The translations under genes were made by a program, and so were the position numbers. Shown piece after piece: positions 11,806-20,370 of a stretch of 34,441 nt of DNA. Position 1 is the stretch's first letter; the number at the start of each line of letters is the position of its first letter. The DNA comes from a virus, in the IMG/VR virus record IMGVR_UViG_3300033144_002094, positions 1 through 34,441 of that record; one strand, 5' to 3'. The notes under the pieces were generated by a model. That model saw only the letters and a program-made list of their open reading frames with translations, ran no database searches and was not told where the DNA came from.

Positions 11806-13851
11806 ATGCTCACGCCGGATGAAGTCGAACGGATAGCAGACGCAACGCTCAAGGCGTTCACGCTGCTAGAGTCCGGCCTACGTTCGGATGCGGCTGTGGC
11901 GTTGACCGACCCGCTGCATGTCGATCGTGCCAACCTTCTCGACAAGTTGACTCGTACCGCACACGCTAACGCCGGTGCTATCGAGCAGTCCGTGATAGAC
12001 GCTATGACCGATGCCGCACACACATCGCTCCTCACAGACGAGCAGATATACGGTGCCGCACGCACCGCCGGACTCGTACGCGAATACGTACCGCTCGCAC
12101 AGTCGGTCACGCTAGACCAAGTGCTGCGTGATGGCATAGCGACCGCCACGAACATGACGAACATCGTCGGCACGTCTGCGGTACAGGCTGTCAATGCGGA
12201 GTTCACTGCGGCACTCGACAAGGCGTTGATATCGACCGTCACCGGGTCGCAGTCGATGGATGCAGCCATCCGTGAGGCCGTCAAGTCGATCGCTACCAAA
12301 CAGACTGATGTGACATACGTCACATCCGATGGCGTGCTCGTCAAGCAGAACATCTATTCTGCCGTTCGTCGGGCCGTAGTGACCGCTAGTAATCAGACGA
12401 CGTTACGGATGCAGGAAGCGCGTCTGGGTGAGGTCGGAGCAAACTATGTCGAGGTCACGGCACACGCTGGAGCGAGGCCCGAGCACGCAGCATGGCAGGG
12501 GCAAGTCTATCTGTTCAGCGACCTTGGAGAAGCGACCGGATATGGGTCCGGCGACGGGCTAGGAGGCTGGAACTGCGTTGTCGGAGATACGCTAGTCTCT
12601 GGACCGCCGCCTTGTACCGCGTACAGGCGTGAGTATTCCGGCGAACTCGTCATCCTCACGACCGCCAGCGGTAAGAAACTCACCGTCACCCCTAATCACC
12701 CAATACTTACCACGGAGGGATGGGTCGCTGCTGGCCTTCTCGACGAGGGAAGCTATGTAATCTGCCGCAGCACCAACAACGGGACATCTTACACCAGCCC
12801 ACACGACAACGAGAACCCAACCAGAATCGAGGACGTATTTAGTGCGCTCGCGGTACGCGGCGATGTCCTGCGGTTTCCGATGTCGTCCACAGACTTCCAC
12901 GGCGACGGGACCGACGGCGAAGTCGAGATTGTACTTGCCAATAGCCTTCTGGATGATGGGGTCGAGTCCTCTGTATCTGAGCAAACCACACAAGGCGGCC
13001 TCGGAGTCACTACCGAATCTTGCAGTACGCTCTCTGCCAATCGCCCTCTTGCACAGGTCGGCGTTGGTGCGTTTCGTTCCCCTAACGGCATCATGGGCGG
13101 GCTTCGTGAGCGCATCACGTTCTTCCTGAGTCATGCGAGAGAGTCTTGTGCGCAACGCCTCGGATCGGTTAACGGCGGTCGGATAGCCCAGCCCAGCGAG
13201 CCGATTTCCGATAGTGGCGGCCCCGACTCCAAGTCGCCTAGCGATAGCCTTCTTAGTAACGCCGCTCTCGTAGAGCCTGACAATCTCGTCCTCATCAAGC
13301 GGAAGTGGATAGTTGCCAACCTTGCCACGCGGAAAGCCGAGCCTGACGAAGTGATTGCTGATAGCGTGGCTTCCGCATCCGAAGTGTTCTCCAAGCTGCG
13401 CGTGGGTAAGCCCGGTGGCCCTAAGCCTGAGAAGCTCGTCGGTATCGATAGGGAATGGCGATCTACCCATGTTTACAACCTCCGCACAATAGATAACTGG
13501 TATTACGCTGGGGATATCGTAACACATAACTGCCGACATTCGTGGATGCCCTTCTTCCCAGGGATCATGGAACAGACTGACCATAGTTACCTCGACGGCC
13601 GCGACTCCGAACTCGACTACGAACTCAGTCAGCGGCAACGACTCGCCGAGCGCAACATCCGCGAATATCAAGGCCGCGCCAATGCCTACTCCGCCGCTGC
13701 TCGCGCAAGTGGCGATGCTACGCTCAAGGCTGAGGCTGCGAGGAATAGTGCGCTTGCTACCAAATGGCGGTCAGAGGCAGATAGGGTGTCGATAGCGCGT
13801 GGTGGTGCGCGTAGACGTGCGCGTGAAGCTGCCACACCGACGTTCAAGTAA
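11806..13851 (+). CDS. Minor head protein (Phage_min_cap2/MuF-like) containing an intein
   Basis: A 681-residue precursor. Residues 1-256 and 576-681 together make a 362-residue minor head protein of the SPP1 gp7/Phage_min_cap2 type, which binds the portal and aids DNA entry. The junction rebuilds the hallmark motif GLGGWN-CRHSWMPFFPG, so the insertion lies exactly in the most conserved part of the family. Residues 257-575 are a class 1 intein: C257, block B TPNH at 295-298, block F HVYNLRT...GDIVTHN ending at H574-N575, then C576 as the +1 nucleophile. The C-terminal extein is a basic, Ala/Arg-rich tail. The opposite strand of the intein encodes a separate endonuclease. Confidence 0.93.
   Translation: MLTPDEVERIADATLKAFTLLESGLRSDAAVALTDPLHVDRANLLDKLTRTAHANAGAIEQSVIDAMTDAAHTSLLTDEQIYGAARTAGLVREYVPLAQSVTLDQVLRDGIATATNMTNIVGTSAVQAVNAEFTAALDKALISTVTGSQSMDAAIREAVKSIATKQTDVTYVTSDGVLVKQNIYSAVRRAVVTASNQTTLRMQEARLGEVGANYVEVTAHAGARPEHAAWQGQVYLFSDLGEATGYGSGDGLGGWNCVVGDTLVSGPPPCTAYRREYSGELVILTTASGKKLTVTPNHPILTTEGWVAAGLLDEGSYVICRSTNNGTSYTSPHDNENPTRIEDVFSALAVRGDVLRFPMSSTDFHGDGTDGEVEIVLANSLLDDGVESSVSEQTTQGGLGVTTESCSTLSANRPLAQVGVGAFRSPNGIMGGLRERITFFLSHARESCAQRLGSVNGGRIAQPSEPISDSGGPDSKSPSDSLLSNAALVEPDNLVLIKRKWIVANLATRKAEPDEVIADSVASASEVFSKLRVGKPGGPKPEKLVGIDREWRSTHVYNLRTIDNWYYAGDIVTHNCRHSWMPFFPGIMEQTDHSYLDGRDSELDYELSQRQRLAERNIREYQGRANAYSAAARASGDATLKAEAARNSALATKWRSEADRVSIARGGARRRAREAATPTFK
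12592..13470 (-). CDS. Antisense homing endonuclease, EDxHD/Vsr-like, nested inside the intein
   Basis: A 292-residue protein read on the - strand, wholly within the intein. Residues 11-46 and 61-96 are two related helix-turn-helix units (TGLTHAQLGEHFGCGSHAI and SGVTKKAIARRLGVGAATIG). Residues about 100-145 form a basic linker with MTQEERDAL...AVRG, usual in phage homing enzymes. Residues 155-226 match the Vsr-like fold of EDxHD/PD-(D/E)XK homing endonucleases: E157, Q174, D183 (YNLDFA), E192 (VAVEVCG), H197, then a GWVLVVVWAG strand. A family-like GKYWVIRGDGE follows at 254-264. GGAGG lies eight bases before the ATG. The frame opens further to 13671, but the first 67 residues there are antisense to the extein. 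AGG and AGA arginine codons, rare in neighbouring genes, suggest recent acquisition. Cleavage would promote intein homing. Confidence 0.88.
   Translation of the reverse strand: MGRSPFPIDTDELLRLRATGLTHAQLGEHFGCGSHAISNHFVRLGFPRGKVGNYPLPLDEDEIVRLYESGVTKKAIARRLGVGAATIGNRLAGLGYPTAVNRSEALRTRLSRMTQEERDALTKPAHDAVRGTKRTNADLCKRAIGRERTARFGSDSEAALCGLLRYRGLDPIIQKAIGKYNLDFAVGPVAVEVCGRHRKPQDIAAYRERTKYVLDSGWVLVVVWAGVRCPVVGAAADYIASLVEKASSDPSLRGKYWVIRGDGEFLTAGGREDDEFAGILTPVRGTRRRSRD
13479..13483 (-). promoter_or_regulatory. Ribosome binding site of the antisense endonuclease
   Basis: On the - strand GGAGG stands eight bases before ATG (13470-13468). On the + strand the same bases encode the block F residues N-L-R of HVYNLRT. 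This site decides the start of the endonuclease at 13470 and excludes the upstream in-frame ATGs. No convincing promoter for this strand was seen. Confidence 0.7.
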
Positions 13852-15525: not shown

Positions 15526-16392
15526 ATGGCTAACAACATCGGCCGTGCGAGCAAGTATATCAAGCTGCTCGACAAGGTGTACAAAAGGGGTTCGCTCACG
15601 TCCGTGTTGGACGTAGCGCCCGCTCTCGTGAAGGCTGCGGAGGAGGCTGGTACGTTCTACGTCCAGACACTCGCTCTTGTCGGTCTTGGCGACTACAGCA
15701 AGACCAATGGTCCGCCCGCCGGTGACGTGACTGCCGCATGGGTAGCACACACCTACGACGAGGATCGCGGACGTAAGTTCACCGTGGACGCTGCTAACGA
15801 TCTTGAGGCCATGGGCGTGTTCGGGAACATCGCCGGAGAGTTCTTGCGCCGGTATGTCACCCCCGAGATCGACGCTTATCGTATGGCGACGATCGCTACT
15901 GCGGCTGGTACGGATGTCGCCGCAGATTTGTCGACGGCTGCTGACTGGGTATCGGCACTCAACACCGGCATGAACACGCTGGATGAGGCCGAGGTTCCCG
16001 ACGGTAACAAGGTGCTATTCATTACCCCGACGGGTTCGCGCCTTATCCGTAATGCGGCCACGACTGCGGCCACCACGGACGCTCTCGACCGTTGCCAGGT
16101 AGTCGAGATCCCGCAGGCCAGGTTCTACACGGCCATCGATCTCAACGCTGGCGCTACTGGTTCGGCTGGTGGATACACCAAGAACTCACTCGCGGAGAAT
16201 ATCAACTTCATGATCATGGACAAGGGTTCATGCTTCGCGGATGCCAAGCACACGAGCATCAAGACCATCACGCCCGAAGTGAACCAGACTTCGGATTCGT
16301 ACGTGTATCACTATCGCATCTACCATGATGCGTTCGTGTACGGCCAGAGGGTAGACGGAATCTACGTTCACACTTCTGCCGAAGTCAGCTAG
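15526..16392 (+). CDS. Major capsid protein, HK97 fold
   Basis: A 288-residue capsid protein. The first 45 residues include NIGRASKYIKLLDKVYKRGSLTSVLD, a helix followed by a loop, as in related Gram-positive phage capsid proteins. The P-domain helix and strand pattern (AWVAHTYDEDRGRKFTVDAANDLEAMG), KVLFITPTGSRLIRNA, and the closing VYHYRIYHDAFVYGQRVDGIYVH are typical of the group. A protease is not encoded nearby, so no cleavage is predicted. It follows scaffold by ten bases with AAGGAGAC before the ATG. The downstream hairpin may protect the abundant mRNA. Confidence 0.95.
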   Translation: MANNIGRASKYIKLLDKVYKRGSLTSVLDVAPALVKAAEEAGTFYVQTLALVGLGDYSKTNGPPAGDVTAAWVAHTYDEDRGRKFTVDAANDLEAMGVFGNIAGEFLRRYVTPEIDAYRMATIATAAGTDVAADLSTAADWVSALNTGMNTLDEAEVPDGNKVLFITPTGSRLIRNAATTAATTDALDRCQVVEIPQARFYTAIDLNAGATGSAGGYTKNSLAENINFMIMDKGSCFADAKHTSIKTITPEVNQTSDSYVYHYRIYHDAFVYGQRVDGIYVHTSAEVS

Positions 16393-16472: not shown

Positions 16473-17522
16473 ATGGTTGAGGGGAAGCGCACCATCGGGC
16501 GCGTGAAGCACCGGATGATCCTTGAGAATCACAAACGTAATCGGGCGGCAACCGATCCGGACGAGTCTCCGAAAAGATGTCTGTACATGACGAGACTCCC
16601 CGAGGGTGGTAGCCGATACAAGTTCCGCCGCATGTTCGAGCGAATCTTCGACCTCGACGTGCAGAGCGGTTCCGTGCGTGCGAACGGTCAGAAGTTCGCC
16701 ATCGTGTTCGGTGACGTGTATCGGGACTACCAGGTTCCGCTCAAGGCCGGGATACCGTATCTGCTCATCGAACATGACTTGGCGACGATGCGATCTGGTA
16801 AGGAATCGGAAGCGGAGCGTGAGATGGTCGAGAACGCCGCCGCGCTCATAGTCACTTCCGAAGGATACCTGCCTCATCTTGCAAAGCGATACACGCTTCC
16901 AAAGGCTACTGGTGTTGTGCATCTTCGACCAGTCATGCGCGACCTAGACTTCGAGCCACTACCGAAGTTGGAAGGTCAGCACATCGCATACGCTGGCGGT
17001 ATCATGTCCGAGAACAAGGCCGATACACCGATGGGATATCGCGTCCTGTTCGAGCCGTTCCAGGCGTTGATAGACGAAGGCTGGACCGTACACATCTATC
17101 CGGCTGGCAAATGTACTCCGTACGCTAAGGATTACGAGTCTATTGGGTGCGTGGTACACAAGCAGGTGCCGCCAGGTGCGCTCTACCGCGAGTTGTCGCA
17201 GTATCAGGCAGGGTTCCATGGATGGGGCCGCACCGGAGCGCAGGAGTTCGTACATGCCTGTGTTCCTAACAAGTGGTACATGTATCTCGGGGCCGGGATA
17301 CCGACACTCGGATTCAACGTCGGCGACCGTGTTCCGTATGACGGCAAGTGGGGCTGCGTCCACAAACGTTCGTGGGCGGCCACCACGCGAAGGATATTGA
17401 ACATGGACATCGACCCGCATACGAGGATCCGGCAAGTAATGGAATCCGACTGGCCGACGTTCATTGAGGTTTCGCAAGCACTACTAGACGCATCGGAGGC
17501 AGGAACATGCAAGCAGGGGTGA
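16473..17522 (+). CDS. Glycosyltransferase, GT-B-like, adjacent to the capsid gene
   Basis: A 349-residue protein with the features of phage structural-region glycosyltransferases: a first domain ending IPYLLIEHDLATM then AALIVTSEGYLPHLAKRY, and a donor-binding domain with HIAYAGGIMSENK, WTVHIYPAG and the KWYMYLGAGIPTLGF segment that precedes the nucleotide site. No EX7E pair is as clear as in the protein at 6387. GGAGG stands before the ATG. The gene between the capsid and neck genes makes virion proteins the most likely acceptor; virion glycosylation is known from some actinobacteriophages. The acceptor here is inference. Confidence 0.8.
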   Translation: MVEGKRTIGRVKHRMILENHKRNRAATDPDESPKRCLYMTRLPEGGSRYKFRRMFERIFDLDVQSGSVRANGQKFAIVFGDVYRDYQVPLKAGIPYLLIEHDLATMRSGKESEAEREMVENAAALIVTSEGYLPHLAKRYTLPKATGVVHLRPVMRDLDFEPLPKLEGQHIAYAGGIMSENKADTPMGYRVLFEPFQALIDEGWTVHIYPAGKCTPYAKDYESIGCVVHKQVPPGALYRELSQYQAGFHGWGRTGAQEFVHACVPNKWYMYLGAGIPTLGFNVGDRVPYDGKWGCVHKRSWAATTRRILNMDIDPHTRIRQVMESDWPTFIEVSQALLDASEAGTCKQG

Positions 17523-18369: not shown

Positions 18370-20370
18370 ATGGCCTACACCCTCTCCGATAGTTCCGTCT
18401 GGAACAAACGCCACAAGATAGCCAAGTCCACGGACACCTACATCTCCGGCAACCTCACTGACTTCACGCTCCTTGTGAAGATAGACTCGAACGCCCGCTG
18501 GAATGACTTCTGGGCGAACGTTGACAGTACCGAAGGCTATGTGCAGTTCACCGACTCCGGTGGCGAGACTGTCCAGAAGTTTGAGATAGAGGACTGGGAC
18601 ACTACCAATACCGAGGCTATCTTCTGGGTGAAGGCATCCTCGGCACTCGCCGCAGCCGATACCGAACTCTACCTCTACTTCGACTATGTATCAGGTGGCT
18701 CTGCTCCGTTCGATGACAAAGAGAACGCCTGGGACGCTACACACATAAGCGTCTGGCACATGAACGAGGACAAAGCCGAAGGTGCGTTCGATGATTCGAC
18801 CTCGAACAACCACGATTTGACGAACTCAGGTACCACAAGCATTGTGGGTGAGGTCGGCAAGGGTCTTGATTTTGATGGCACTGATGACTTTGTTTCTGCC
18901 GCCGACCACGCCGACTGGATACTCGGCAACGACTTTGCAATCAGTCTGTGGTGTGACACGACCGATATTAATACCAGCGAAAGAAGTCACCTATTCGCTC
19001 AGTTTGATGACACCGACAACTACTGGAGATTCGGGCTATATGACATCCCCTCAAGCCCGGCCTTCTCCGTCACAGTCAAATCTAGCGGGTCGATACTGGT
19101 CAATGAAGTTCCGGCCTGGGCCGGATATACGGATGCGGTTCACTATGTTGTGCTGCGGCGAATCTCTACTGACTGGTACGTGTATGTTGATAGTGTGCTT
19201 AAGGCCACAATAACGGATAGCGTAGCCGTACCCGATATCGCTGCCGTGGTCATGCTCGGCGCGATAATCCCAGCCGCGCCAGTCGAAGAACTTGATGGGA
19301 TGCTTGACGAATATCGCGTCCACAGTACATCTCGGACAGTCGAGTGGTTCGACCTCTCATATCACGACATAAACAACGCAGACGACTGGACTACATACCA
19401 GACGCTAAGTGCTATGGAGGGCGCACTCGAAAAAGCCGTCACCGCCGGTATCACGCTCGCGGCCTCGCTTGCGCGTTCGGTATCGAAGCCACTCACGGCT
19501 GGACTCACACTAGCGGCTGCATCCGCGAAGTCCGTCACACGATCTGTCACGGCTGGACTCACGCTAGCGGCTGCAAAGTCGGTTGCGGTCACTAAGTCGG
19601 TGACGGCGGGATTGACATTAGCCGCATCCATATCGCGTGCCGTAGCCAAGTCTGTGACCGCCGGACTCACGTTAGCGGCCACGAGTTCGCGTGCAGCAGC
19701 AAAGTCGCTCACGGCGGGCCTGACGCTCTCGGGGACGGTATCTCGCTCGGTCGCGGTCACAAAGACGGCGGGCTTCACGCTAGCGGCATCGGTGGGACGT
19801 GCGGTCACGAAACCGCTCACCGCTGGCTTCACACTAGCCGCGACTGCGTATCGTGGATTCAACAAGGCAGTCACGGCGGGACTCACGCTAGCCGCCACCA
19901 CTGCCATGTCGGTAACCAAGTCCGTATCCGCTGGCTTCACACTTACGGCAGCAGCGATTCGGGGCTTCAATAAGAACGTATCCGCTGGCTTCACACTGGC
20001 GGGTACCCAGGCGATGGCGGTCACGAAGTCGCTCGCCGCAGGACTCACGTTAGCAGGCGTAAAGTCAGTGGCGGTAGGAAAGCGCATGTCGGCAGGATTC
20101 ACACTCGCGGCGTCCACGACCCGTGCAGTCGGCGCATCATTCACCGCAGGATTCACGCTAGCAGCTTCACTCCTGCGTGGTGTCGCCGTCACGCTCACGG
20201 CAGGATTCACGCTGCTGGCTAGTTTCACGTCAATCGTACAACGGCGAATCATACGCCCCTTGAGCGGTACAATGGGATCAGGAAGGCCGCGCCGCGTAGA
20301 CGTGGATACATCGCGTCCGGATGTGGCTGACATGACGTCAAGTCGCCCACGTCGCGGCAAGATAGAATAG
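18370..20370 (+). CDS. Putative neck/head fibre: DUF2341 + LamG + 18-residue tandem repeats
   Basis: A 666-residue protein. Residues about 5-110 resemble DUF2341 (WNKRHKIAKS...DFTLLVKI...FEIEDWD), about 115-340 are a LamG/concanavalin-like lectin domain (SVWHMNE, GKGLDFDGTDDFV, FAISLW), and about 356-622 hold fifteen 18-residue repeats of TAG(L/F)TLAAxxxRxVxKxV form. The C-terminus is short and basic. DUF2341-LamG pairs are known in phage and surface proteins that bind glycans. Its gene lies between capsid and head-tail connectors, not among tail fibres, so a head- or neck-attached adhesin is my inference. Confidence 0.75.
   Translation: MAYTLSDSSVWNKRHKIAKSTDTYISGNLTDFTLLVKIDSNARWNDFWANVDSTEGYVQFTDSGGETVQKFEIEDWDTTNTEAIFWVKASSALAAADTELYLYFDYVSGGSAPFDDKENAWDATHISVWHMNEDKAEGAFDDSTSNNHDLTNSGTTSIVGEVGKGLDFDGTDDFVSAADHADWILGNDFAISLWCDTTDINTSERSHLFAQFDDTDNYWRFGLYDIPSSPAFSVTVKSSGSILVNEVPAWAGYTDAVHYVVLRRISTDWYVYVDSVLKATITDSVAVPDIAAVVMLGAIIPAAPVEELDGMLDEYRVHSTSRTVEWFDLSYHDINNADDWTTYQTLSAMEGALEKAVTAGITLAASLARSVSKPLTAGLTLAAASAKSVTRSVTAGLTLAAAKSVAVTKSVTAGLTLAASISRAVAKSVTAGLTLAATSSRAAAKSLTAGLTLSGTVSRSVAVTKTAGFTLAASVGRAVTKPLTAGFTLAATAYRGFNKAVTAGLTLAATTAMSVTKSVSAGFTLTAAAIRGFNKNVSAGFTLAGTQAMAVTKSLAAGLTLAGVKSVAVGKRMSAGFTLAASTTRAVGASFTAGFTLAASLLRGVAVTLTAGFTLLASFTSIVQRRIIRPLSGTMGSGRPRRVDVDTSRPDVADMTSSRPRRGKIE
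19431..20238 (+). repeat. Tandem 54-bp coding repeats, about 15 units
   Basis: The period is 54 bp (18 residues), with the core ACGGCxGGACTCACGCTAGC-like phrase recurring in variable form. The encoded TAGLTL/TAGFTL core is conserved while the linker half varies. Diverged copies suggest old expansion, and such arrays can change copy number by slippage. Confidence 0.9.

Follow-up and report, generated by a model that had tools for sequence, protein, structure and literature searches.

The usual description of an intein is that of a single polypeptide whose splicing and endonuclease activities are encoded in the same reading frame; in canonical members, a LAGLIDADG or HNH endonuclease is fused in frame to the HINT domain. 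In fractured genes, the endonuclease gene is reported to lie between the halves of a split intein (Dassa et al., 2009). The ShiLan domain, a hidden HNH endonuclease found in a phage methylase, is encoded on the same strand but out of frame; it lacks splicing motifs, was explicitly judged not to be an intein, and no ribosome site was found for it (Arsenault et al., 2025; PMC11855218). The same paper cites, with regard to overlapping reading frames in actinobacteriophages, a preprint on inteins of these phages with a "non-canonical architecture" (Gosselin, Arsenault and Gogarten, bioRxiv 2025, 10.1101/2025.01.02.630785), which might already report the Gordonia cases discussed below. Among group I introns, some are known whose homing gene runs antisense. 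In the literature searched, which did not cover this preprint, no description of an antisense endonuclease gene in an intein was found, and the passages located in papers on carrier phages (Salmonella UPWr phages, E. coli vKMB36) refer to the intein without naming an antisense gene. The embedded promoter and start logic and the family-wide scope are likely the parts least apt to have been described already.

The window analyzed here, a stretch of 34,441 nucleotides derived from a 34.4-kb virus record, contains a minor head protein gene interrupted by an intein (Table 1). We consider it very likely that this intein is a mobile element whose homing endonuclease is a separate antisense gene, its expression, cleavage activity, splicing and homing being inferred. 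As in canonical inteins, class 1 residues, a conserved site and exact presence/absence are found, but here the endonuclease is separate, lies on the opposite strand and overlaps even the splicing blocks. Unlike the fractured genes of Dassa et al., the host gene and intein are unbroken, with the nuclease gene antisense within them; no split host gene of that type was seen, the codon-aligned sense frame being open across the whole endonuclease match in 104 of the 105 related loci examined. Compared with I-Bth0305I and other EDxHD endonucleases, the broad class of the predicted nuclease fold and the association with inteins are the same, and sequence similarity to I-Bth0305I is marginal (E 0.03). 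With ShiLan, the locus has in common that an in-frame insertion conceals an endonuclease ORF in a different frame, that free-standing relatives exist and that the distribution is patchy, but the window gene is on the opposite strand, is Vsr-like and coexists with splicing blocks, and thus does not fit the ShiLan type. Finally, as in the group I introns mentioned above, the homing gene is oriented against its host gene within an element that splices itself; those introns splice as RNA and need no open frame, whereas here the whole element must be translated in the sense frame.

Table 1. Features of the intein-interrupted head gene and of the gene antisense to it (positions in the window).
Feature	Position	Strand	Details or basis
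Minor head protein gene (SPP1 gp7/MuF type)	11806..13851	+	681 aa, intein-interrupted
Exteins of the minor head protein	11806-12573 and 13531-13848	+	
Class 1 intein (splicing inferred)	12574..13530	+	319 aa, Cys257 to Asn575, +1 Cys
Intein block B, TPNH	12688..12699	+	Sequence; column conserved in family alignment
Intein block F, HVYNL	13468..13482	+	Sequence
Predicted antisense homing endonuclease gene	12592..13470	-	292 aa; ATG 13470-13468, stop TAG 12594-12592
Two helix-turn-helix units, residues ~10-43 and ~60-93	13189..13443	-	Pfam and model
Vsr/DUF559-like nuclease domain, residues ~148-246 (E157, D183, E192)	12733..13029	-	Profile matches
Shine-Dalgarno GGAGG of the antisense gene	13479..13483	-	Sequence, 8 nt before ATG
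-10-like box TGT-TACGAT, in intein block G	13516..13524	-	Family-wide codon bias

The product of the interrupted gene matches Phage_min_cap2 (Pfam, E 2.5e-47) and a minor head protein in PHROG, and terminase and portal genes lie upstream of it (Pfam/PHROG). The intein fulfills the class 1 residue criteria (C257, encoded at 12574-12576; TPNH; HN at 574-575, the codon of N575 being 13528-13530; a Cys at +1). It scores over the cut-off of NCBIfam intein_Nterm and under that of Pfam Intein_splicing (8e-6), and its blocks can be aligned across the whole intein family. An intein-free relative, L224, reads TGYGSGAGLGGWN followed directly by CRHSFYP, where the window reads TGYGSGDGLGGWN, then the intein, then CRHSWMP; since this site is continuous where the window holds the intein, the borders are exact. 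L224 is an in-frame, intact empty site for the window's protein, but a distant relative. By its residues and empty alleles, the element is a class 1 (HINT) intein, although splicing itself is inferred. No match to the nuclease family was found in the sense linker of the intein, either with Pfam or in the family scan; a canonical intein with an in-frame endonuclease was excluded, the nuclease family being on the opposite strand.

Each antisense codon is the exact reverse complement of a sense codon, and the stop of the antisense ORF falls within the intein, the gene being nested wholly inside the intein borders. HTH_7 and HTH_23 score over their Pfam cut-offs in the second helix-turn-helix (HTH) unit, and the predicted model contains three-helix units in the HTH region. 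Taken alone, the protein yielded little: single-sequence AlphaFold2 gave a pLDDT of 47 and no usable fold, and a single-sequence search of the PDB returned weak matches only, mostly of HTH type. With 67 family members as alignment, the AlphaFold2 model reached a pLDDT of 90 (pTM 0.69) and comprises the two HTH units, a helical linker and an alpha/beta domain. MTES_1575, a restriction-type nuclease family of Pfam, was matched in 51 of the 67 members and DUF559 in six of the 67, and Pfam HTH families in many of them. A profile search of the PDB retrieved 3HRL, a DUF559-like protein (2.3e-6), and 3R3P, the catalytic domain of I-Bth0305I (0.03); Foldseek matched the latter with a probability of 0.99 and a TM score of 0.61 on the target, but an E-value of only 0.03, the best E-values against solved structures being weak (0.02-0.03). 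Residues E157, Y180, N181, D183, E192 and R209 are invariant or nearly so in the family, and the wording GGxWH is also frequent. As far as can be inferred from sequence alone, these residues are compatible with a Vsr/PD-(D/E)xK active site. The antisense product is thus predicted by the model, in the absence of cleavage data, to have a nuclease-type fold of this class, and is best classed as Vsr/DUF559/MTES_1575-like, strict membership in the EDxHD family being unresolved. The initial annotation had described a complete class 1 intein on the + strand (C257, TxxH, HN at 574-575, +1 Cys) and, fully inside its borders, a 292-residue antisense ORF with two HTH units; all of this held, including the coordinates and residues of the intein. 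Its assignment of an EDxHD/Vsr-like nuclease held for the Vsr-like part, the EDxHD part being unresolved, and the lack of a nuclease fold, which it had named as a refutation, was checked and did not hold given the model and matches above.

The codon-aligned antisense register is expected to produce long shadow ORFs at high GC content. A 332-aa antisense ORF at 19362-20360 (-), inside a gene at 18370-20370 (+), has no Pfam match; it looks like a pure shadow ORF, most likely, and serves as a caution. ORF length was accordingly discarded as evidence for the antisense gene, such a long ORF without family match being present in the window. Because shadow ORFs are expected and an example is at hand, the case rests on homology and selection. 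One rival reading holds that the antisense ORF of the intein is also a shadow, its conservation merely mirroring that of the sense linker; the apparently meaningless second ORF speaks for it, as does the register, which is the one favoring shadow ORFs. We regard this reading as all but excluded: nuclease and HTH families are matched on the antisense strand only, the sense frames opposite a free-standing relative from Acinetobacter phages are full of stops, the arrangement recurs in Firmicutes and Gammaproteobacteria contigs, and substitutions in the core track the antisense protein.

The last point comes from a comparison of silent changes. As the codons of the two strands coincide, each antisense third position is the first position of a sense codon, and single-base differences between codon pairs were counted as silent only in the sense or only in the antisense protein, with the expectation taken from the same codons. 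In Guernseyvirinae, sense-silent changes outnumber antisense-silent ones in the exteins (1157 vs 76), the N-splicing region (87 vs 35) and the C-splicing region (63 vs 13), where about equal numbers were expected, whereas the core shows 342 antisense-silent vs 60 sense-silent changes (expected 122:117). In the window's own group, the sense-silent to antisense-silent counts are 417:74 in the exteins and 62:287 in the core. In all nine groups, the core has a negative log2 ratio (-0.35 to -2.43) and the exteins a positive one, the weakest core signal being that of the group L002/L006 (-0.35, second test). Codon pairs within a group are not independent; the sign is nevertheless repeated across lineages, a pattern that a shadow ORF would not produce. 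Selection therefore switches strand along the element: exteins and splicing blocks keep the sense protein, and the core keeps the antisense protein. Spearman correlations between distance matrices computed for the endonuclease core, the splicing domain and the extein, all short saturated sequences, were uninformative (0.32, 0.32 and 0.02). As a natural example of overlapping protein genes, the locus is unusually clean, the switch of selection between the two being visible along the DNA.

The arrangement is not confined to the window. Searches with the antisense protein (tblastn) revealed relatives in 134 phage records, at ~26-48% identity and in many cases nearly full length, a few of these matches being to the HTH part only; the hosts of the carriers include Gordonia, Salmonella, Klebsiella, Pseudomonas, Escherichia, Vibrio, Idiomarinaceae, Mycobacterium and Acinetobacter. 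Alignment-based scans found relatives in 285 viral contigs and 14 bacterial genome contigs, the latter including Chloroflexi, Firmicutes, Actinomycetes and Gammaproteobacteria. A total of 105 distinct loci were examined, a 106th (L047), a lone HTH protein, being excluded. With one free-standing exception, the relatives in these loci lie antisense, codon for codon, within an intein. Nearly all occupy one position in the head protein, the N/C junction of a motif of (HP)NCRC type, and have intact intein blocks. The antisense match is free of stops in 97 of the 105 loci; since it holds one stop in the other eight with the sense frame open, some endonucleases have likely decayed while the splicing frame persists. 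Given that these loci had been found through the antisense protein, a second sample was gathered with no query other than the C-terminal splicing block of the sense protein; of its 80 loci, 78 carry the endonuclease family, all antisense and codon-aligned. The two exceptions are L221, on a contig ending 18 residues upstream, and L192, a mini-intein that occupies a head-gene site of this kind and lacks the endonuclease region; a short stretch of L192, SFHGDGHG, resembles a remnant of the overlapped core. In this large intein family, the antisense arrangement is thus the rule. The initial annotation, which knew of no described intein with its homing gene on the opposite strand, is corrected in that the arrangement is not unique to the window; its second potential refutation, an antisense frame routinely broken in homologs, was checked and did not hold, that frame being open in most loci and its core under selection.

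The cassette is also found outside minor head genes. By PHROG, the exteins belong to a terminase large subunit in L215 and to a head maturation protease in L216, and L170 carries an intein with antisense endonuclease in a phage protein of unknown function; the presence of the cassette in these host genes indicates that it has moved between genes. The PHROG family phrog_15127, labeled "head protein", matches through the intein: among its hits are cassette-bearing proteins that are a terminase, a head maturation protease or of unknown function, and annotations based on it may therefore be wrong. In the intein loci inspected with their annotation, the depositors' gene call is the sense gene, the antisense endonuclease gene being almost always left unannotated; for the free-standing copy in Acinetobacter, the record lists a hypothetical protein. 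These observations reveal an endonuclease family mostly missed by annotators and explain misleading "head protein" profiles.

Signals for expression of the antisense gene coincide with the splicing motifs. The His codon of block F (CAT, 13468-13470) is the reverse complement of the antisense ATG, and the GGAGG motif overlaps the Asn-Leu codons of the same block on the opposite strand. Across the family, this His is encoded by CAT (giving ATG) in 88 of 112 loci against a background of 33%, and the Leu by CTC (giving GAG) in 92 of 112 against 25%. Block G (e.g., Ile-Ile-Thr-His-Asn) can be encoded so that its reverse complement reads TGnTATAAT. The third base is A in 79 of 159 loci at codon -4 (expected 23.9, z 13) and in 97 of 159 at codon -3 (expected 22.4, z 18), with little or no such bias at neighboring codons and a weak enrichment at codon -6 (z 3.8). 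The exact TATAAT hexamer occurs in 38 of 160 loci, and the position of the hexamer is 45 nt before the antisense start in 107 of 112. In the window the box is weak (4/6 match). A generic sigma-70 scan reported no promoter, the window box included, and the promoter case is for that reason built on family-wide codon bias. As a control, 36 canonical bacterial inteins show no enrichment at the equivalent codons (z -0.6 and -0.2), no TATAAT and no antisense endonuclease. The z-values ignore relatedness, and the contrast between family and control is large. Codon choice in the splicing motifs is therefore strongly biased towards an antisense start, ribosome site and -10 box, with transcription remaining an inference. 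A promoter-like box in block G would also yield an antisense transcript if only the RNA mattered, for example by silencing the head gene, and no protein were made; this alternative is all but excluded by the selection on antisense codon positions and by the favored ribosome site and start codon. On the preferred reading, that of a translated antisense gene, expression of the endonuclease would be uncoupled from that of the structural gene, and mutations on either strand would be constrained by the other. The locus shows how a homing gene could be expressed apart from the structural gene around it.

Evidence for mobility comes from relatives and none from the window's phage, for which only the distant empty site L224 is available. 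Gordonia phages Vivi2 and Brandonk123 differ by exactly 948 nt, corresponding to an intein of 316 codons, between flanks that are ~96% identical, and Escherichia phages Snoke and fFiEco03 by exactly 816 nt, an intein of 272 codons; both joins are in frame, at N/C. In Gordonia phages Nordenberg, Lennon and Sitar, the flanks of Vivi2 are matched and the head gene holds a divergent insert of different length, which suggests that this site has been invaded, or its insert replaced, more than once. An HNH endonuclease is annotated in the head-gene region of two related Escherichia phages, Schulenburg and fFiEco02, and is possibly another mobile element of that locus.

Acinetobacter phage P1068 and two others carry a member of the family as a stand-alone gene, which directly follows a head gene without intein and has the reverse orientation, and thus proteins of the antisense family exist without any intein. 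The free-standing L042 protein alone has no Pfam match, and so its assignment relies on homology to the family. The full query was covered in three of 82 related Acinetobacter records, the other listed records being ~877-890 bp shorter over the same span. The end of the carrier's head gene is replaced, LZ35 having INCRCRKKLIIEIP and P1068 PMCKCRAKLIIEIP, and the two are near-identical further out on both sides. This replacement looks like target-site co-conversion during homing, although this is inferred. Empty sites, exact presence/absence, the free-standing copy and the mini-intein together fit a homing cycle, homing itself being an inference.

In the proposed mechanism, the sense strand would be translated with the head protein, from which the intein would splice itself out. 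The antisense gene would be transcribed from within block G and translated into an HTH protein with a Vsr-like nuclease domain, which in a mixed infection would cut intein-free minor head genes at the conserved N/C site of the (HP)NCRC-type motif; repair of the cut allele would then copy the whole cassette. Since each strand encodes a protein that is needed, many mutations that break the antisense frame would impair splicing as well, and selection on the head protein would be expected to remove them. We think it likely that the window represents a large, mostly unannotated class of tailed-phage inteins that encode splicing and homing on opposite strands and whose splicing motifs have been shaped into a promoter (block G) and into a ribosome site and start codon (block F). 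The idea advanced at the outset, that one mobile cassette separates splicing from endonuclease expression, fits these data, with expression, cleavage and homing still to be regarded as inferred. A direct test of homing is feasible, since some carriers are coliphages and Gordonia phages that grow readily and have sister phages without the intein.

Two further readings accept the antisense gene. First, it could be real and selected while its product acts as a DNA-binding regulator or as a restriction or defense nuclease. In favor of this, the tandem HTH units are regulator-like, several of the best PHROG matches of the protein are transcription regulators, MTES_1575 is a restriction-type family, and there are no cleavage data. 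We nevertheless hold it to be very unlikely, given that the host intein is precisely inserted and patchily distributed, that the flank of the target site is replaced beside the free-standing copy, that the nuclease part is similar to I-Bth0305I and that loss of the endonuclease in the mini-intein fits homing. Second, the endonuclease of the window's phage could be inactive, splicing alone being maintained and the open frame being a remnant of recent activity. The relatives with an antisense stop and an open sense frame support this view, as do the weak -10-like box and the absence from the window copy of the family wording GGxWH around H197. It appears unlikely, as the window copy is full length and keeps E157, D183, E192, H197 and R209, and as the core of its own group is under antisense selection. 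The reading as an antisense homing gene is the one we favor. Elsewhere in the window, a 349-aa ORF at 16473-17522 (+), just downstream of the ORF at 15526-16392, looks glycosyltransferase-like by eye only.
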